DNA of 64,000 nucleotides from an uncultured Ruminococcus sp. (GTDB lineage: Bacteria; Bacillota; Clostridia; Oscillospirales; Acutalibacteraceae), in contig CALYBP010000003.1 in NCBI GenBank assembly GCA_944415425.1, positions 1-64,000 of the forward strand, written 5' to 3'. Each line of letters begins with the position of its first letter. Position 1 is the first letter of the stretch. Positions 1 to 9,548 of this stretch are shown piece after piece. The translations under genes were made by a program, and so were the position numbers. The notes beneath the pieces are model-generated. The model saw only the letters and a list, made by a program, of their open reading frames with translations. It had not been told where the DNA came from and did no database searches.

Positions 1-18
1 ACTTTTCGATACAGCGGT

Positions 19-930
19 TTATTCTTTTACCGAAGCCTTGATGTTTTTACAAGGCTCAATTTTTAAATTATCCGATTCATTAGGCTTTGCACGCTTTTCA
101 ACTGTTTTTTTCCGCACTTCTATCTCATCAAATTTCTTTTTGAAAGAAATTCTGCCGATAAACGTCCTTTCACAGTTCTTGCAGTAAAACTCAGCGGAAA
201 AGCTCTTGTTTCTCTGTTTCCATTTTCCTGTTCTTTTTGCAAGTCTGCCGCATAAATCACACTTGAATTTAAGCTGGCTTCTGTCGATTTCATCGCTGTT
301 TATATCGGTTATAAAACGGGCTTTGTATGTGAGCTTTTCATAAAAGTTATTTTCTCCCGCATCAACTATAAAACCGTCAAGAGACTTTTTTCCGCAGAGC
401 TTTCTAAGGCATCTCAAACTAAGCTCAGCGTCTGCAAATGCTCGGTGCTGATCATCCTGAGAAAAATCAATTTCCAAAAGCTCGGCGCATGATGAAAGAC
501 CGAGCTGACAGGATTTTTTGGATTTATCAAGGCAGTTTTCACAGTAAGCCTGCAAATTACAGTATTTTTTTAAAAAAGGAAGCTTGCAGTCACCCGTAAA
601 GTAACTGTAATTTTCAACGAGGGCGTGAATATCCGATGTGCTCCAAGTCATCAAAACACAACCTCTTGAAAATTCGGTAAATTTATTTACCGCATCAAGA
701 AAAGGTATACCCTTTTCGTAAAGCTCTTCTGTTGTAATCTTTGTCAGCTCACGAACCTTTCCGCTTATCTTCTTGCCTATCTGCGGTTTTATGAGAACCG
801 AAAAAGTATCTGTAATATTAAACTCATCGTCAACCTTAACCGCTCCGAACTCGATAATTTCATTGACAAATCGGTGCAGAGCCTTACTGTATGAGCCGTT
901 CCACTCTAAATCAAGTACTACATATTCCAT
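19..930 (-). CDS. DEDDh-type 3'-5' exonuclease with C-terminal zinc ribbon
   Basis: Probable 3'-5' exonuclease of the RNase T / DNA polymerase III epsilon superfamily. The N-terminus has the Exo I motif (LDLEW, Asp7 and Glu9) and a later HRAFADAELS segment fits the ExoIII region. The last third has a CDLC...CKNC pair about 30 residues apart, a likely zinc ribbon, followed by a lysine-rich tail. It resembles KapD-like exonucleases, but the substrate (RNA or DNA) cannot be read from sequence. The start ATG overlaps the bipA stop by one base (TAATG), so the two genes are translationally coupled in one operon. Confidence 0.8.
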   Translation of the reverse strand: MEYVVLDLEWNGSYSKALHRFVNEIIEFGAVKVDDEFNITDTFSVLIKPQIGKKISGKVRELTKITTEELYEKGIPFLDAVNKFTEFSRGCVLMTWSTSDIHALVENYSYFTGDCKLPFLKKYCNLQAYCENCLDKSKKSCQLGLSSCAELLEIDFSQDDQHRAFADAELSLRCLRKLCGKKSLDGFIVDAGENNFYEKLTYKARFITDINSDEIDRSQLKFKCDLCGRLAKRTGKWKQRNKSFSAEFYCKNCERTFIGRISFKKKFDEIEVRKKTVEKRAKPNESDNLKIEPCKNIKASVKE

Positions 931-2750
931 TATTTTTTACGAAAAGCCTGCTTCATACGCTGCTCTTTTGACAAAATACGCTTACGCATTCTTATATTCT
1001 GAGGCGTTACCTCAACAAGCTCATCGTCAGCGATGAACTCAAGACACTGCTCAAGGGACATCTGGGTCGGAGGCGTAAGCTTGAGCGCATCGTCGGAACC
1101 GGACGCACGGGTATTTGTAATGTGTTTCTTTTTACATACATTTACTGTAATATCCTCAGCCTTCGGACTTGCACCTACAATCATTCCCTCGTATACGGGA
1201 ACACCTGCGCCTATAAACAGTCTGCCCCTCTCCTGAGCGGCGTACAAACCGTATGTCACCGATTCACCTGTTTCAAACGCAATAAGCGAGCCCTGGTGAC
1301 GGGTGACGATCTCGCCCTTAAAAGGCTCGTAACCGTCGAAAACATGGTTCATAATACCGTTACCGTTTGTATCGGTAAGGAACTCAGGACGGTAGCCCAT
1401 AAGTCCTCTTGCGGGGATTCTGAATTCAATATGCGTAACGCCGCCGTCACGAGTACCCATATTTACAAGCTCTGCCTTTCTTGAGCCGAGCTTTTCCATA
1501 ACTGCACCCACATAAGAATCAGGCACCTCAATAATCAAAAATTCAATAGGCTCATAGAGCTTGCCGTCGATAGTTTTCGTTATAACCTGAGGACGGGATA
1601 CCTGAAATTCATAATTTTGACGGCGCATTGTTTCAATAAGGATTGAAAGGTGAAGCTCTCCCCTGCCCGACACCTTAAATGTGTCTGCGCTGTCAGTTTC
1701 TTCTACACGCAAAGCCACATTGGTTTCTATCTCCTTAAAAAGCCTGTCACGAAGATTTCTTGAAGTAACATACTTTCCTTCTTTTCCGGCGAAAGGTGAA
1801 TTGTTTACAATAAAGTTCATTGATACGGTAGGCTCGTCAATCTTTACAAACGGCAGAGGCTCTACACAATCGGGAGAACAAATTGTTTCTCCGATGTTAA
1901 TATCCTGTACGCCGCTGATGCATATGAGATCACCGAGCTCAGCTTTGTCGCACTCAACTCTTTTAAGTCCCTCAAACTGATAGAGCTTTGAGATTTTAAC
2001 ATTTTGCGTTGTTCCGTCAGTATGGCACAAAACAACGCTCTGACCGCTTTTAACGCTTCCTCTTTCAACTCTTCCTACGCCTATTCTTCCCACAAACTTA
2101 TCGGAATCAATATTTGAAATAAGTATCTGGAGTCCGCCGTTCATATCACCTGACGGCGCGGGGATTTCATTTACTATTGCATCAAACAACGGTTTCATAT
2201 CGCTTGCAAGGTTGTTATAATCCACACCCGCATATCCGTCGCGTGCCGAAGCGTAAATCACGGGGAACTCAAGCTGGTCTTCATCGGCACCAAGCTCTAT
2301 AAACAAATCTAATACTTCGTCCACAACCTCTTCGGGGCGCGCGCCCGAACGGTCGATTTTATTAAGCACAACAAGCGGCTTTTTTCCGAGCGAAAGAGCC
2401 TTTTTCAGAACAAATCTTGTCTGAGGCATACAGCCCTCAAATGCGTCAACAAGCAACACAACGCCGTCAACCATTTGTAAAATACGCTCAACCTCGCCGC
2501 CGAAATCGGCATGACCGGGAGTGTCAACGATATTGATTTTAATGCCGTTGTACATTACCGCAGTAGGTTTTGACAAAATTGTAATTCCTCTTTCACGCTC
2601 AAGGTCGTTTGAATCCATTACCCTTTCTTCAACAACCTCATTTTCTCTGAAAATACCGCTCTGCTTCAAAAGCTGATCAACAAGAGTCGTCTTGCCATGG
2701 TCAACATGAGCAATAATGGCTATATTCCTTATATTTTCTCTAACATCCAT
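930..2750 (-). CDS. typA: Ribosome-binding GTPase BipA/TypA
   Basis: Translational GTPase of the elongation factor G family that binds 70S ribosomes and acts in ribosome assembly and stress adaptation. The G-domain motifs are HVDHGKTTL, RERGITI, DTPGHADFGGE and NKIDR, followed by EF-Tu domain II, EF-G-like domains and the BipA-specific C-terminal domain; the length of about 606 residues is normal. The start is set at the ATG at 2750, preceded by an AGAGGGA ribosome binding site; a longer reading frame begins 12 codons upstream but lacks such a site. First gene of a two-gene operon with the exonuclease. Confidence 0.95.
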   Translation of the reverse strand: MDVRENIRNIAIIAHVDHGKTTLVDQLLKQSGIFRENEVVEERVMDSNDLERERGITILSKPTAVMYNGIKINIVDTPGHADFGGEVERILQMVDGVVLLVDAFEGCMPQTRFVLKKALSLGKKPLVVLNKIDRSGARPEEVVDEVLDLFIELGADEDQLEFPVIYASARDGYAGVDYNNLASDMKPLFDAIVNEIPAPSGDMNGGLQILISNIDSDKFVGRIGVGRVERGSVKSGQSVVLCHTDGTTQNVKISKLYQFEGLKRVECDKAELGDLICISGVQDINIGETICSPDCVEPLPFVKIDEPTVSMNFIVNNSPFAGKEGKYVTSRNLRDRLFKEIETNVALRVEETDSADTFKVSGRGELHLSILIETMRRQNYEFQVSRPQVITKTIDGKLYEPIEFLIIEVPDSYVGAVMEKLGSRKAELVNMGTRDGGVTHIEFRIPARGLMGYRPEFLTDTNGNGIMNHVFDGYEPFKGEIVTRHQGSLIAFETGESVTYGLYAAQERGRLFIGAGVPVYEGMIVGASPKAEDITVNVCKKKHITNTRASGSDDALKLTPPTQMSLEQCLEFIADDELVEVTPQNIRMRKRILSKEQRMKQAFRKK

Positions 2751-2949
2751 ACAATCCCTCTGTTTCTGTTTTCTCTTATACTTCACACATCATTATATTA
2801 TATCACCGCTTGCAATAAAATTCAATTTGCATTTTTAAACACCTTTTTCTGAGTAATCAAATATATTTTGAAACATTTTCCCAATATAACGCCTTTTAGG
2901 ACAAAAAATCAGCATTTTCCGATTAATATCTGATTAATATAAATTTTAC

Positions 2950-2978
2950 TTTACATTAAATGAAGATTGTTATATAAT
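2950..2978 (+). promoter_or_regulatory. Sigma-A promoter of the aconitase operon
   Basis: TTTACA (2950-2955), 17-bp spacer, TATAAT (2973-2978). Nearly perfect vegetative promoter about 65 bp before the aconitase start. The rest of the 292-base gap back to bipA is AT-rich and holds no gene. Confidence 0.8.
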
Positions 2979-2990
2979 TAACATAGTATT

Positions 2991-3008
2991 TTGTGTTTTT
3001 GGGCACAG
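2991..3008 (+). promoter_or_regulatory. Candidate Rex operator
   Basis: The 18-base sequence TTGTG-N8-CACAG closely matches the known Rex operator (TTGTG...CACAA), with one mismatch in the last base. It lies 12 bp after the -10 box, over the expected transcription start, where a repressor would block the operon. The operon itself ends in rex, so this would be autoregulation by NADH/NAD+ ratio. The operator role is inferred. Confidence 0.5.
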
Positions 3009-3042
3009 AGTAAATTTGCACATCATTTCAGGAGGTAATACT

Positions 3043-4974
3043 ATGGGTTATACAATTGCGCAAAAGATTATTAAAGAGCACCTTGTATGCGGTGAAATGG
3101 CAGTTGGTAACGATATTGGTCTGAAAATCGACCAAACTCTCACACAGGACGCAACGGGCACTATGGCTTACATTGAATATGAGGCTATGGGTATTCCGAG
3201 AGTAAAAACCGAAAAAAGCGTTGCGTACATAGACCACAACACGCTTCAGACAGGTTTTGAAAACGCCGATGACCACAGATTTATTCAGTCGGTCTGCAAA
3301 AAGCACGGCATATATTTTTCACGTCCCGGCAACGGTATCTGCCACCAGGTTCACCTTGAAAGATTCGGAAAGCCCGGCAAAACTCTTATAGGCTCAGACA
3401 GCCACACTCCGACAGGCGGCGGCATAGGAATGCTCGCAATCGGCGCAGGCGGTCTTGATGTTGCTGTTGCCATGGGTGGAGGAGCTTACTATATTACAAT
3501 GCCCAAAATGGTCAGAGTTAACCTCACGGGCAAGCTTAATCCATGGGTATCGGCAAAAGATATAATCCTCGCTGTTTTGCGCGTTATGAGCGTTAAGGGC
3601 GGTGTAGGCAAAATTGTTGAGTACGGCGGAGAGGGAGTTAAAAACCTTACTGTTCCTGAAAGAGCTACCATCACCAATATGGGTGCGGAGCTCGGTGCAA
3701 CTACTTCCGTGTTCCCCTCGGATGAAATTACAAGAGAATTTCTCAAGGCTCAGGGTCGTGAAGAGGATTACAGAGAGCTTTCTGCCGACGCTGATGCTGT
3801 ATATGATGAGGTTATCGAAATTAATCTTTCAGAGCTTGAACCTCTTGCAGCCTGTCCCCACTCTCCCGACAATGTAAAGCCGATAAAAGAGCTTGAGGGA
3901 AAGAAAATCGATCAGGTTTGTATCGGATCATGCACAAACTCAAGTTATCTCGACCTTATGAGAGTGGCATATATTCTCAAGGGAAAAAAGGTTGCCGATA
4001 ATGTATCCCTTGCTATTGCTCCCGGAAGTAAGCAGGTATTTAATATGCTCGCTCTAAACGGTGCTCTCGGCGATATGATTGCGGCAGGTGCCCGTATTCT
4101 TGAAAGTGCCTGCGGTCCGTGTATCGGTATGGGTCAGTCCCCTAACAGCCACGGAATTTCGCTTAGAACCTTTAACCGTAACTTTGAAGGCAGAAGCGGT
4201 ACTGCCGACGGTCAGATCTACCTTGTTTCTCCCGAAACAGCCGCTGTATCGGCAATTAAAGGCGTATTTACGGATCCGAGAATCTTAGGTGATGCCGCAG
4301 AAATCGAAATGCCTGAAAAATTCCTCATTAACGATAATATGGTTATTGAGCCCGCTCCCGTTGAAGAAATGGACAGCGTTGAGATACTTCGCGGACCGAA
4401 CATCAAGGAGTACCCGAAAACAAGTCCGCTTACAGACTCTATCGAGGCTTCCTGCTCTCTTAAAGTCGGCGATAACATTACTACCGACCACATTATGCCT
4501 GCGGGTGCAAAAATTCTTCCGCTTCGTTCAAATATTCCGAAAATTTCCGAGCATTGCTTTACCGTGTGCGATAAAAACTTCCCCGAGCGTGCCAAAACTC
4601 TCGGCAAGAGCATTATCGTCGGCGGAGAAAACTACGGTCAGGGTTCATCCCGTGAGCATGCCGCTCTCGCCCCCCTTTATCTCGGCGTTAAAGCCGTGCT
4701 TGTAAAGAGCTTTGCAAGAATTCACAAGAGCAACCTCATTAATGCGGGTATTCTGCCGCTTACATTCAAGAATACTGCCGATTACGATAAGATTAAGCTC
4801 GGCGATATGCTTGAACTTCCCAATGTTAAAGAAGAAATTGCAAACGGCTCTGATATTACTGTCCTGAACAAGACAACAGGCGAAAAAATCATGGCTGAAT
4901 GTGAGCTTTCAGACAGAACAAGAAAAATAATCATTGCAGGCGGATTGCTTGACTACACAAAGGAGAACAGCTGA
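3043..4974 (+). CDS. acn: Aconitate hydratase
   Basis: Interconverts citrate and isocitrate using a [4Fe-4S] cluster. The cluster ligands are visible: CIGSCTNSS (Cys297) and ACGPCIG (Cys357, Cys360). The C-terminal swivel domain has the [11 protein letters not shown] motif. The 643-residue length fits the shorter, Aquifex-type aconitase subfamily rather than the ~900-residue AcnA. The ATG at 3043 is chosen because GGAGGT lies 7 bases upstream; the reading frame extends nine codons further but without support. It is 2 bases from icd and forms a citrate-to-2-oxoglutarate operon with it. Confidence 0.95.
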
Positions 4975-4976
4975 TA

Positions 4977-6185
4977 ATGGATAAGATTAAAATGACCACT
5001 CCTCTCGTTGAGATGGACGGGGATGAAATGACAAGAATAATCTGGCAGCAGATTAAGGATATTTTGATTCTTCCCTATGTTGACCTAAAAACCGAGTATT
5101 ATGACCTCGGACTTGAGTACAGAAACGAAACGGACGATCAGGTTACTGTTGACAGCGCAAACGCTACCAAAAAGTACGGCGTAGCAGTTAAGTGCGCAAC
5201 AATTACCCCGAATGCCGCAAGAATGGACGAGTACAACCTAAAACAGATGTGGAAATCTCCTAACGGTACTATCCGTGCTATCCTTGACGGTACCGTTTTC
5301 AGAAGCCCGATTCTTGTAAAGGGAATCACTCCTTATATTCCTACCTGGAAAAAGCCGATTTGCATTGCCCGTCACGCATACGGAGATGTTTACAAAAACA
5401 CGGAAATGCGTGTAAACGCAGGCAGCAAGGCTGAGCTTTGTGTTACAAAGCCCGACGGTACGGAAGAAAGAAGCCTTATATTTGATTTTAAAACTGACGG
5501 CGTTATTCAGGGTATGCACAACATTGACAAGAGTATATCCTCTTTTGCACGTTCGTGCTTTAACTACGCTCTTGACCAGAAAATTGATGTTTGGTTTGCA
5601 ACAAAGGACACGATAAGCAAAACCTATGATCACAGATTCAAGGATATTTTTGCGGAAATCTTTGAAAACGAATATAAGGACAAATTCGCCGAAGCGGGAA
5701 TTGAGTATTTTTATACTCTGATAGATGACGCGGTTGCCCGTGTAATCCGCAGCGAAGGCGGCTATATGTGGGCTTGCAAAAACTACGACGGTGATGTAAT
5801 GAGCGATATGATAGCAACTGCTTTCGGCTCACTTGCAATGATGACAAGCGTGCTTGTATCTCCCGACGGCACATATGAATATGAGGCTGCACACGGAACG
5901 GTTCAGCGCCATTATTACAAATACCTGAAGGGCGAGGAAACATCAACAAACTCTGTTGCTACGCTGTTTGCATGGACAGGCGCACTGAGAAAGCGCGGAG
6001 AGCTTGACAATTTGCCTGAGCTTATGAACTTTGCAGATAAACTTGAGGGAGCGACTATAAAAACTATTGAGGACGGAATTATGACGGGAGATCTATATGC
6101 CATCTCCACTCTTGAGAACAAAACCAAGGTAAACACGGAGGATTTCCTCAAGGCAATAAACGAGCGTCTTGCAGCTTCACTTTAA
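4977..6185 (+). CDS. icd: NADP-dependent isocitrate dehydrogenase (eukaryotic-type)
   Basis: Oxidatively decarboxylates isocitrate to 2-oxoglutarate with NADP+. The N-terminal [17 protein letters not shown] stretch and 402-residue length match the homodimeric eukaryotic/mitochondrial-type NADP-IDH rather than the E. coli type. The AAGGAG site lies within the end of the aconitase gene. With aconitase it supplies 2-oxoglutarate for glutamate synthesis; no other TCA enzyme is in the window, so an incomplete oxidative branch is likely but not proven here. Confidence 0.95.
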
Positions 6186-6214
6186 TTGCTTATATAATAA
6201 AGGAGCAAAAAGCA

Positions 6215-6850
6215 ATGTCAAAAGGTGACAGTATATCAATGTCGGTTATTCGGCGTCTGCCGAGATATTACCGATTTTTATCCGAATTAAACGAACAGAA
6301 TGTTGACAGAATTTCATCGACTAAGCTCGCTCAGATAATGAATGTTACAGCTTCTCAGGTAAGGCAGGATCTTAACTGCTTCGGCGGCTTCGGCCAGCAG
6401 GGATATGGTTACAGCGTAAGCCAGCTTAAAGACGAAATTAAAAATATTTTGGGTCTTAATAATGGTTATAAGGCGATATTAATCGGTGCCGGAAATCTCG
6501 GAAAAGCTGTCGCTATGCATATGAATTTTGAAAAGCTCGGGTTTGAGCTTATAGCCTGCTTTGACAATAACGAAAACAAGGTTGGTCAAAAGCTTAATGA
6601 CCTTGTGGTTAAAAACGAATCGGAGCTGGAGGAATTTTGCAATAACAATCGTGTTGACACCGCTTTTTTATGTATTCCCCGTATTTGTGTTGAGAATATT
6701 CTCGACAAGCTTTATGCTCTGGGGATAAAGAATTATTGGAATTTCAGCCATTATGACATTACGGCAAGATATGCCGATACTTTGGTTGAGAATGTGCATT
6801 TAAGCGACAACCTAATGACGCTTTGCTACCGAATGAATAATACAAAATAA
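6215..6850 (+). CDS. rex: Redox-sensing transcriptional repressor Rex
   Basis: NADH/NAD+-sensing repressor. The N-terminal winged helix includes RLPRYYRFLSEL and SSTKLAQIMNVTASQVRQD; it is followed by a Rossmann domain with GAGNLGKAVA. The 211-residue length is normal. AAGGAG precedes the ATG. It lies 29 bases after icd in the same direction, so it is probably co-transcribed and controls the operon through the site at 2991-3008. Confidence 0.95.
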   Translation: MSKGDSISMSVIRRLPRYYRFLSELNEQNVDRISSTKLAQIMNVTASQVRQDLNCFGGFGQQGYGYSVSQLKDEIKNILGLNNGYKAILIGAGNLGKAVAMHMNFEKLGFELIACFDNNENKVGQKLNDLVVKNESELEEFCNNNRVDTAFLCIPRICVENILDKLYALGIKNYWNFSHYDITARYADTLVENVHLSDNLMTLCYRMNNTK

Positions 6851-6861
6851 ATTTTAAAACA

Positions 6862-6911
6862 AAGAGCATACACGCAATTTAACGGTTAGGTTTAAGTTGC
6901 TGTATGCTCTT
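6862..6911. terminator. Bidirectional terminator between rex and cotJC
   Basis: AAGAGCATACA pairs with TGTATGCTCTT, with the inner stem extended by GCAA/TTGC. A-rich and T-rich flanks on both sides let it serve the two convergent genes. Confidence 0.7.
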
Positions 6912-6918
6912 AGTTTAT

Positions 6919-7467
6919 TTACTTCTTTTTTTTACAGTTGTTAAAACATTTTTTATCAAACGACGGGTTGAAAGCGTAATAATTTTTAGAGTCGAGTTTA
7001 TCTGTCATCAATCTTAAATTCTCTCCGAAACGCTGGTAATGTACTACCTCGCGCTCACGGAGAAATCTTATTGCGTCCTTAACATCATAATCATCGCAGA
7101 AGCGCAGGATATTGTCATATGTGGAGCGAGCTTTCTGCTCTGCCGCCATATTTTCATGCAGATCTGTTATCGGGTCTCCCTTGACCTGCATTGATCCTGC
7201 CGAGAAAGGCATTCCGGAAGCGGACTGAGGATATATTCCCGTTGTGTGATCTACAAAATAATCCTCAAAGCCGGCTTTCTTTATTTCTTCTTCAGTTAAA
7301 CCCTTTGTTAACTGGTATACGATTGCGCCTATCATTTCAAGGTGTCCCAATTCCTCTGTACCTATATCGGTCAAGGTTCCTTTAAGCTCAGGAAGAGGCA
7401 TTGAAAATCTTTGACTCAAATATCTAAGCGACGCGCCCAACTCGCCGTCAGGACCGCCGTATTGCAA
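6919..7467 (-). pseudogene. cotJC: Spore coat protein CotJC, 5'-truncated (manganese-catalase family)
   Basis: The reading frame matches CotJC, a ferritin-like dimanganese protein of the inner spore coat, from the QYGGPDGEL segment to the C-terminus. Metal-ligand segments are kept: DGEL, TEELGHLEM, AAEQKARSTYD and REREVVHYQRF. CotJC proteins normally start with about 27 further residues (typically MWxYEKKLxYP...). These are absent, and homology stops exactly at the glutamine before YGG. Upstream, 13 bases of unrelated AT-rich sequence lead into the end of a serine recombinase. Only a TTG without a ribosome binding site is available, so translation from here is unlikely. cotJA and cotJB are not found nearby. 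Best read as a gene split by recombination. Confidence 0.8.
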
Positions 7468-7510
7468 AATGTTATATTTTAACTTATTGTATTGAATTGT
7501 ATTGCAAATC

Positions 7511-8938
7511 TCATACTGAAAAATACAGTTCTATGCTTGATGATGCCCTGTCAAATATTATTTTTTCGGTAAAGCTTGAAAGAATTATGTTTTTTTCTTT
7601 TTCCGAATAATTTTTACTTTCAAGCATATCAATCAATTTGAATTTTATAAATATAGGAGAGCACGGCTTTCTTTGCTCTGATTCCGCGCTTTTTAATAAG
7701 CGTTTAATACGGTCGATTCTTTCTTCGGCAAGGCTTTTTCTTTCGCTGTATTCGCTGAGAGAATATACGCCGTTTTCATATGCATCTTTAATACGCAAAA
7801 CCCTATTTTGCTCCCTTTGTAAAAGCATTTCATTTTCGTTTATACAAGCTCTTTTCGACTGTTTATTTAAACATATTTTAACAACTCTGTTTCCGACTGC
7901 CTTTTCAAGAGCCGAAATAACCGCTGCGTTGATTTTTTCTAATGTAACAGAGTGCGATTTACTGCATTTTCCGTGCGCATAAGCGATACATTGAAGCGAT
8001 TTACCTTTTTGTGCCATTGAGAGTGCGGAACCGCAGCTTGAGCATTTTAAAAGTCCGTGGAGCATATATTCTGCCGCCGTCTTTTCGTGGACTCGGCGAA
8101 TTTTATTTTTACTGTTCTTTTCAATAAGCGTTTGAACCTTGTAAAACAAGCCGCTGTCAATTATAGGCTGATGACGTCCGTCTGAGATTATTATATCGGG
8201 ATCGTCATAATTTTTGCCTGTTTTCCTCTTTGGATTCCACCTTATTTTCCCCATATATACCGGATTTCTCAAAATATATTCAACCGTCCTGCTCTCCCAA
8301 CTGTTTCCTCTTGTCGTCTTTACTTTTAATTCATTTAATTTTTCGGCTATTTTATTTACAGGCACTCCGTTTAAGTAATCATCAAACATTTTTCTTACAA
8401 AATAAGAAGTTTCAGGATTAATTTGATATTCCTTGTTTTTCATTGTATAACCGAACGGCGCAACGGATACCGCCCCTCCTCTTTCGACTTTCTCACTCAT
8501 CCCCCTTTTTACTTCGCCCGAAAGTCTTATTGAGTAATATTCGTCCGACCACTCTATTATCCTTTCAATAAGTGAGCCGAACGGCCCCTCCGTTATCGGC
8601 TCGGAAACGCTTATAACTTCAATTCCGTTTTTTCTTAGCATCGATTTGTAAAATATGCTCTCCTCTTGATTTCTTGCGAAACGTGAAAATTTCCATAAAA
8701 GCACGGCGCAAAACGGCGGAGGCTTTTGTTTTGCCTCTGAAATCATCAGATTAAAATTCGGCCGCTTTTCCGCTGTCCTTCCCGAAATTCCGTCATCCCT
8801 GTAAATGTATTTGTCATACAGAGCATACCCGTGATTTAAAGCATACTGTTTTACAAGCTTTATTTGACTGTCAGGCGAAAGCTCGGTTTGACTTTCCGTA
8901 CTCACTCTTATATATGCCGCCGCAATCTTTTGTTTCAA
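7511..8938 (-). CDS. Large serine recombinase
   Basis: 475-residue site-specific recombinase. The N-terminal resolvase domain has the catalytic serine in YIRVSTESQ (Ser13) and the conserved YIYRDDGISGRTAEKRPNF segment. A Recombinase domain follows (around 160-260). A zinc beta ribbon with CSSCGSAL...C...C comes next (around 300-335), and the C-terminus is coiled-coil rich. This is the architecture of phage integrases and of SpoIVCA/SprA-type enzymes that excise elements from sporulation genes. Its stop codon lies 44 bases from the cotJC break and it reads in the same direction as cotJC, as expected for an integrase at the end of its element. Confidence 0.92.
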   Translation of the reverse strand: MKQKIAAAYIRVSTESQTELSPDSQIKLVKQYALNHGYALYDKYIYRDDGISGRTAEKRPNFNLMISEAKQKPPPFCAVLLWKFSRFARNQEESIFYKSMLRKNGIEVISVSEPITEGPFGSLIERIIEWSDEYYSIRLSGEVKRGMSEKVERGGAVSVAPFGYTMKNKEYQINPETSYFVRKMFDDYLNGVPVNKIAEKLNELKVKTTRGNSWESRTVEYILRNPVYMGKIRWNPKRKTGKNYDDPDIIISDGRHQPIIDSGLFYKVQTLIEKNSKNKIRRVHEKTAAEYMLHGLLKCSSCGSALSMAQKGKSLQCIAYAHGKCSKSHSVTLEKINAAVISALEKAVGNRVVKICLNKQSKRACINENEMLLQREQNRVLRIKDAYENGVYSLSEYSERKSLAEERIDRIKRLLKSAESEQRKPCSPIFIKFKLIDMLESKNYSEKEKNIILSSFTEKIIFDRASSSIELYFSV

Positions 8939-9080: not shown

Positions 9081-9302
9081 TTGAAAGGACAAGATAAATC
9101 GGATACAGCAAAATGCTATATAAAAAAGGGAGATAAAAATATCTTATGGTGCGAGGTAAATCTCAAAACAAGTGAAGCGGTCAATTATCTTTCTGAAAAG
9201 GAAGCAGAAAAATATAAGATACAGATTATTAAAAAAGCAGAAGATGCAATAAGCAGATATGCAGTTAATTACACGGACAGCACATTTTGGAATAATTCGT
9301 AA
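9081..9302 (+). CDS. Small hypothetical protein divergent from the recombinase
   Basis: 73 residues, started by TTG with a GAGGTGG ribosome binding site 5 bases upstream. No recognised domain. The centre (LSEKEAEKYKIQIIKKAEDAIS) looks helical and highly charged, and lysine is abundant. It is transcribed away from the recombinase and followed by a strong terminator. Small proteins beside serine integrases are sometimes recombination directionality factors; that is a guess from position only. Confidence 0.55.
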   Translation: MKGQDKSDTAKCYIKKGDKNILWCEVNLKTSEAVNYLSEKEAEKYKIQIIKKAEDAISRYAVNYTDSTFWNNS

Positions 9303-9445: not shown

Positions 9446-9474
9446 AAAAAAGCGCCGACAAAACGGCGCTTTTT
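9446..9474 (-). terminator. Terminator of tRNA-Thr
   Basis: On the minus strand AAGCGCCG-TTTTGT-CGGCGC is followed by six T residues, immediately after the tRNA CCA end. Confidence 0.8.
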
Positions 9475-9548
9475 GGAGCTGGAGATGGGACTTGAACCCA
9501 CGACCTATTGATTACGAATCAATTGCGCTACCACTACGCTACTCCAGC
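9474..9548 (-). tRNA. tRNA-Thr (anticodon CGT)
   Basis: Cloverleaf read on the minus strand: acceptor GCTGGAG paired with CTCCAGC; D arm GCG...CGC; anticodon stem ATTGA/TCAAT around loop TTCGTAA (anticodon CGT, threonine); T arm with GTTCAAGTCC; genome-encoded CCA. Bases 9549-9845 to its right are AT-rich without a gene. Confidence 0.92.

Follow-up and report, generated by a model that had tools for sequence, protein, structure and literature searches.

The window analysed here (64,000 nucleotides; positions 1–64,000 of contig C3 of genome G000) contains a spore-coat gene, cotJC, that lacks its 5' end and stands next to a recombinase gene. This raises the question of where the rest of cotJC lies, and whether the cell may rebuild the gene. 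G000 is a draft genome, apparently metagenome-derived, of a gut bacterium of the Ruminococcus bromii group (1.73 Mb in 81 contigs, 99.7% complete).

The two parts of cotJC

The original prediction held that cotJC is cut beside a large serine recombinase gene reading in the same direction, with tRNA-Thr, rpsO and pnp beyond it, and all of these features are present (Table 1). Homology to CotJC begins at the glutamine of Q-Y-G-G, as had been proposed. The cut had been placed at about codon 28, which is nearly right: the actual break is at codon 30/31, within the codons for Y-G-G (codons 29–31). The 3' part contains nearly all of the manganese catalase domain.

The arrangement had been likened to that of skin in sigK and SPbeta in spsM. 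The missing half had been suspected to have been moved, for example by inversion, or lost, and a whole-genome search for cotJA-cotJB followed by the first codons of cotJC and an att-like core had been suggested. Such a locus was found in the same genome, on contig C12, where a sequence encoding the CotJC N-terminus directly follows cotJB and cotJA. This 5' part reads MFVYEKKLQYPVNIKQPNPKLAKIIITQYGG, beyond which homology ends. Absence of any 5' fragment would have refuted the prediction; as the fragment is present on C12, cotJC is neither without its 5' part nor a dead remnant on that ground. An intact second cotJC would also have spoken against a developmental role, and none was found in G000, in which the two cotJC parts are the sole Mn-catalase matches. 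Joined, they score 177 bits against the Mn_catalase profile, versus 140 for the 3' part alone. The gene has the features of one encoding a CotJC manganese catalase: the domain itself, and third place in a cotJABC order with CotJA and CotJB upstream.

Table 1. Features of the split cotJC locus in the window and on contig C12 (C12 positions are marked as such).
Feature	Position	Strand	Basis or content
Terminator hairpin arm, 19-mer TACAGCGGTTTATTCTTTT	10..28	+	Other arm at C12:6-24; only two genome occurrences, ≤2 mismatches
Putative invertible segment, window part	1..7455	.	Exonuclease, typA/bipA, acn, icd, rex, cotJC 3' part
Putative invertible segment, remainder	C12:1-19930		C1 peptidase, htrA, rpiB, tsaB, tsaE, fhs, rodA/ftsW, GHKL kinase, spo0A, spoIVB, P-type ATPase, cysK, cca
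cotJC 5' part	C12:19877-20020	-	CotJC N-terminus
Terminator-like hairpin between convergent rex and cotJC 3' part	6862..6914	.	-28.2 kcal/mol, z -8.1
cotJC 3' part, open reading frame	6919-7467	-	Pfam Mn_catalase, E 1.4e-40, profile positions 28-198
cotJC 3' part, codon 32 to stop (177 codons + stop)	6919..7452	-	Pfam PF05067
Putative attR: B' half (cotJC), core, P arm	7440..7485	-	Core and 18-bp inverted arm in common with attL on C12
attR core CCGCCGTATTGC (= GCAATACGGCGG on the minus strand)	7454-7465
attR predicted crossover dinucleotide	7454-7455
attR P arm	7463-7480
Large serine integrase, 475 aa	7511..8938	-	Pfam (Resolvase, Recombinase, zinc ribbon); PHROG 95 integrase, E 2.9e-105; alignments
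orf73, 73 aa, candidate recombination directionality factor, divergent from integrase	9081..9302	+	Homologues beside the integrase family
tRNA-Thr(CGT), first host gene beyond the integrase module	9474..9548	-	ARAGORN; synteny

Attachment sites

The joint on C12 reads ..AACGCAATACGGCGG|AGCATACTGCAAAATGTTATATTTT, and the joint in the window, on the minus strand, reads AAAATATAACATTTTGCAATACGGCGG|TCCTGACGG. Both contain a 12-bp core, and the P arms that flank it in the two joints, AAAATATAACATTTTGCA and TGCAAAATGTTATATTTT, are perfect 18-bp inverted repeats. Because a common core with perfectly inverted arms is expected of the halves of one attP, the joints are interpreted as attL (C12) and attR (window) of a single attP, with the halves arranged around a central GG. 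This dinucleotide is the predicted point of crossover and is complementary to the window positions given in Table 1. An att core containing GTATTGCAA had been anticipated, which is partly right: the sequence common to both joints is GCAATACGGCGG.

The same att architecture is found in approximately 17 further genomes of the genus. Half-sites match better within genomes than between them (sum of 165 versus a permuted mean of 134, with 0 of 20,000 permutations reaching 165). In G000, where the two half-sites are on separate contigs, they nevertheless agree at 19 of 20 positions.

Contig adjacency and site orientation

The 19-mer listed first in Table 1 occurs only at C3:10-28 and C12:6-24 in the whole genome, even with up to two mismatches allowed. 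When C3 and C12 are joined left end to left end, they overlap by 6 nt (AAAAGT) and fold into a 21-bp hairpin (-28.6 kcal/mol) with A and T tracts, which has the form of a bidirectional terminator between two convergent genes. Over all contig ends, the expected number of coincidences of this kind is approximately 0.0002. In the relative G080, a single contig (C36) carries consecutively htrA (C12:2066), the exonuclease gene (C3:19), typA, acn, icd and rex. Based on the overlap, the hairpin arms and this one relative's gene order, C3 and C12 adjoin left to left. The unique 19-mer and the G080 order thus set the contigs head to head and the att sites in inverted orientation, 27.4 kb apart; there are no reads across the inverted joint.

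Beyond attL, C12 carries cca, cysK, a P-type ATPase gene, spoIVB and spo0A, while rex, icd, acn, typA and the exonuclease gene lie beyond the 3' part of cotJC on C3. With the 5' and 3' parts written as cotJC' and cotJC'', contig adjacency gives the order thrS, cotJA>, cotJB>, cotJC'>, attL, cca ... spo0A ... htrA, peptidase on the C12 side and exonuclease, typA, acn, icd, rex, <cotJC'', attR, <integrase, orf73>, tRNA-Thr, rpsO, pnp on the C3 side. An HTH gene lies between tRNA-Thr and rpsO-pnp in the window.

With inverted sites, inversion is the sole conservative outcome. When the 27,377-bp stretch from one GG dinucleotide to the other is inverted in silico, cotJC encodes an intact 208-aa protein, and cca and the integrase gene are separated by a perfect attP. 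The locus resembles a skin-type interruption in that cotJC is split in frame, the core is present at both joints, rejoining gives a full-length product and a site-specific recombinase gene adjoins the joint. It does not meet the definition in one respect: G000 has core genes between inverted sites rather than an excisable element between direct ones.

Other approaches to the history and orientation of the region were set aside. GC skew and gene strand bias were only suggestive of site orientation and were superseded by the contig-end evidence, and a search of the window for a dif site that would fix the replication terminus gave no match. An ancestral simple inversion with breakpoints cca|tRNA-Thr is unsupported, since cca and tRNA-Thr are not neighbours in G105, G080 or G062. 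The closed genome G149 was too rearranged in gene order (dnaA, icd, cca, pnp) for the ancestral event to be traced.

Conservation in a sister species

In genome G029 both joints recur, flanked by the genes that flank them in G000 (cca|attL-cotJC' and rex-cotJC''-attR-integrase-orf73-tRNA-Thr-HTH-rpsO-pnp), and the orf73|tRNA-Thr junction is shared too. That G029 also has the inverted orientation is an inference, as its contigs stop short of the link. The two genomes are almost saturated for synonymous change, yet both parts of cotJC are under strong purifying selection. In the 5' part, 0 of 70 nonsynonymous sites and 11 of 20 synonymous sites have changed (Fisher 4e-9). Codons 1–22 of this part are outside the att site, so that recognition of the site cannot explain conservation there. 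The 3' part is 96.6% identical at the amino acid level (pN 0.028, pS 0.69; pN/pS 0.04, 2e-53), a constraint like that of rex and pnp; the corresponding ratio for the integrase is 0.35. The simplest reading of these substitution patterns is that full-length CotJC is still made.

The integrase and its phage relatives

The integrase reading frame is intact. Its product has the catalytic Resolvase, Recombinase, zinc ribbon and coiled-coil domains of a temperate-phage large serine integrase, and the nearest solved structures are those of SPbeta YokA/SprA. Close homologues lie beside an intact attP, together with lysis genes, in G044 and G050 (L046, L044), and homologues with an intact attP occur in many viral contigs (such as L140, L142, L143, L150 and L194); in these phage relatives (G044, G050; L140, L142, L194) the attP of inverted arms adjoins the integrase gene. 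Among the other viral contigs are prophages terminating in attR and cotJC''. Within the genus, 20 genomes have a member of this integrase family next to a split cotJC, and in G113 and G083 phage tail genes lie between the halves.

In some phages (viral contigs L206, L210, L175 and L179), the 3' end of the integrase gene faces attL, on the cotJC 5' side, rather than attR, which indicates that the orientation of attP relative to the integrase has flipped within the family.

Upstream of the window integrase gene, no promoter for a sporulation sigma factor could be recognised, and in a scan upstream of integrases sigma-E-like promoters were not enriched, relative to shuffled sequences, to a degree that would support a claim.

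A candidate directionality factor

Members of the orf73 family are small proteins encoded beside this integrase in approximately 15 elements and phages. The gene is co-inherited with the integrase: elements with an intact integrase retain it, whereas those whose integrase has lost the coiled coil do not carry it. Integrases of the latter kind are found in R. bromii (G032, G144 and G034) and in G091, where just the coiled-coil region is lacking and orf73 is absent. These shortened integrases (L094:13364-14575, L103, L098 and L077:9490-10665) apparently lost the region independently in R. bromii and in G091. In the Listeria LI integrase, removal of the coiled coil abolishes direction control, whereas in phiC31 the same removal abolishes activity (PMC10754689). 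Given the LI precedent, the joint loss of orf73 and the coiled coil makes orf73 a good candidate for the directionality factor, and its candidacy predicts factor-free integrases in R. bromii. This role is inferred, with no recombination assay. The G000 protein has diverged from the family consensus; its predicted structure is weak (pTM 0.45) and a fold search gave no significant match, so that there is no structural support for a directionality role.

cotJC as an insertion hotspot in the genus

We surveyed 150 genomes of the genus, among whose named members are R. bromii ATCC 27255 and 5AMG. Counts of cuts are approximate, as they derive from profile boundaries and from the DNA of part of the genomes. 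cotJC is cut in approximately 55 of the 150 genomes, by three recombinase types: at codon ~31 (20 genomes), codon ~64 (approximately 28) and codon ~137 (13), with other recombinases adjoining the joint at the latter two positions. Six genomes (G009, G083, G086, G105, G080 and G141) have two cuts in one cotJC. The gap at codon 31 ranges from approximately 2 kb (G091) to 41 kb (G113), and the gaps in relatives hold prophages, minimal remnants or host genes. That of R. bromii at codon 31 holds its sole Maf copy, and that of G149 a spoIIM-like/proC cluster located elsewhere in G000, G080, G105 and G062.

Several individual loci illustrate this variety. The in-frame splits by the two further recombinase types are seen at L102, L090, L099 and L101 (codon ~64) and at L221, L222 and L227 (codon ~137), and nested double splits of one cotJC occur in several species. 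In R. bromii ATCC 27255 the gap (L094:4345-13183) contains host genes, for a LysR regulator, an SNF transporter, Maf, CobW and an amino-acid ABC transporter, rather than phage genes. In G141 (L080:4411-13870) the only rpsO-pnp of the genome lies between directly oriented attL and attR, with the integrase facing attL and not attR; excision in the mother cell would thus remove both genes from the chromosome. In G033 (L085:5934-6161) and G126 (L100:6926-7042), a cotJC that is intact or longer is followed, some kilobases further downstream, by an additional copy of the cotJC 3' end, possibly left by past insertions at codon ~137. In G062 (L090:9273-9743) the cotJ operon adjoins the tRNA-Thr-HTH-rpsO-pnp block that follows the integrase in G000, and the tRNA-Thr flank looks like a rearrangement hotspot. 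G130 (L231, G130:C61) has two cotJB genes, one by a split cotJC and one by another recombinase, possibly reflecting two cotJ operons or a mixed bin.

A proposed inversion switch and its alternatives

The split, the matched att sites, the inverted layout, the in-frame restoration, the intact integrase and the conservation of both parts are all established at the sequence level. On this basis we consider it likely that a phage integrase kept by the host flips the 27.4-kb segment in sporulating cells and so rebuilds cotJC; the reaction, its timing and the cell in which it takes place are inferred. The enzyme would be a temperate-phage large serine integrase with codon 31 of cotJC as its attB, which the host has retained to switch the gene. 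The assembled arrangement, presumably the vegetative one, has attL at the end of cotJA-cotJB-cotJC' and, 27.4 kb away in inverted orientation, attR between cotJC'' and the integrase gene. In sporulating cells, probably in the mother cell, the integrase and a directionality factor (for which orf73 is the candidate) would recombine attL with attR. Given the inverted sites, the outcome would be a flip of rex-icd-acn-typA ... spo0A-spoIVB-cca with no element excised; cotJABC would be restored in frame, and attP would come to lie between cca and the integrase. That this constitutes a natural, integrase-controlled developmental inversion switch of 27.4 kb of core chromosome (spo0A, acn and icd included), conserved in at least two species, we hold to be probable with some reservation. 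The suggestion that an inversion- or excision-based developmental switch was possible is thereby supported, through the 5' part with its matching, inverted half-site and the conservation of both parts; sporulation timing remains an inference.

The segment could instead flip at low frequency in growing cells, producing mixed populations with no tie to sporulation. We regard such phase variation as unlikely, though a directionality factor allows an integrase to act in either direction and the lack of a recognised sporulation promoter would suit it. Against it stand the target, which is a spore-coat gene, and the precedents: in the papers searched, those phage-type interruptions of sporulation genes that have been studied are repaired around the time of sporulation (PMC5595907, PMC4191935, PMC5025042), with the exception of the yin element, which was found excised at all time points (PMC10747680). 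Rebuilding of cotJC by deletion of a circle, as in skin, would require attL and attR to be in truth direct around a very large segment. Relatives do have direct sites on one contig (G149, G032, G144, G034, G141, G022 and G113), and in G141 these enclose the rpsO-pnp pair described above; in G000, this is quite improbable given the unique 19-bp hairpin arm at the left end of each of the two contigs and the arrangement of genes in G080.

Two further readings involve no rebuilding of the gene. It is very doubtful that the prophage simply decayed, that a rearrangement separated the halves and that cotJC was lost: both halves have stayed under strong purifying selection since G000 and G029 diverged, the att half-sites continue to match each other, and the reading frames of the integrase and orf73 remain open. 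What such a reading has in its favour is that some genomes of the genus have no cotJ match at all and that loss of cotJC in B. subtilis causes no apparent spore defect (PMC12122855). Scarcely credible is a split protein whose halves are translated separately and assemble without DNA rearrangement. An in-frame TTG start for the 3' part does lie inside the P arm, yet the 5' product would be only about 30 residues with a random tail, there would be no need to keep the att arms and the integrase, and the three-way splits of relatives at other codons fit DNA rejoining better. Inversion by the integrase remains our preferred explanation.

Comparison with known systems

To our knowledge, every known phage-interrupted sporulation gene is rebuilt by cutting the intruder out. 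Inversion between inverted sites is the means by which small serine invertases (Hin/Gin) bring about phase variation, and in this regulatory use of inversion the two cases are alike. The window differs from Hin/Gin in its large phage integrase, non-identical attL and attR, candidate directionality factor, 27-kb segment and rebuilt coding sequence; it does not fit the invertase definition (approximately 180–200 aa, identical sites), having a protein of 475 aa with zinc ribbon and coiled coil, and hybrid sites.

The skin element in sigK (B. subtilis spoIVCA; C. difficile CD1231/CD1234, PMC5025042) shares with the window an in-frame split at a short core, a large serine recombinase beside one half and, should the candidate orf73 prove to be one, a small directionality factor. 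It is prophage-like and excised from between direct sites, whereas here the sites are inverted with core chromosome between them. SPbeta in spsM (SprA/YokA, SprB/YotN; PMC4191935) likewise has a phage integrase that targets a spore-envelope gene; in that case the gene is a different one and the whole phage is excised. The gin element in gerE (PMC5595907) and the yin element in yabG (PMC10747680) are also serine-recombinase elements interrupting sporulation genes, and gin, like the present case, is not prophage-like (PMC5595907). Both differ from the G000 segment in being excised, in having no core genes among their described contents and in interrupting genes other than cotJC. The C. difficile phage phi027 has its attachment site at a CotJC-family gene, cotG (PMC11222575, PMC12122855); it is described as adjoining cotG, with no split gene and no rebuilding described (PMC11222575, PMC12122855). 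Within the open-licence literature, we found no report of an interrupted cotJC or of a sporulation gene rebuilt by inversion, and such absence is not proof.

Significance

The halves of cotJC are separated by genes that the cell cannot lose, and inversion is the only reaction available; a phage enzyme would therefore run a chromosomal switch in development. The genus offers a graded series from phage to switch, comprising free phages with attP, full prophages, 2–3-kb remnants, gaps filled with host genes and inverted halves. All of this takes place within one spore gene, at three codons and with three integrase types, in abundant human gut bacteria such as R. bromii. The domestication of viral recombinases, and the keeping or shedding of direction control, thus become testable. 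If our interpretation is true, the genus shows how cotJC prophages turn into host-owned switches, including the joint loss of the integrase coiled coil and the directionality-factor candidate.
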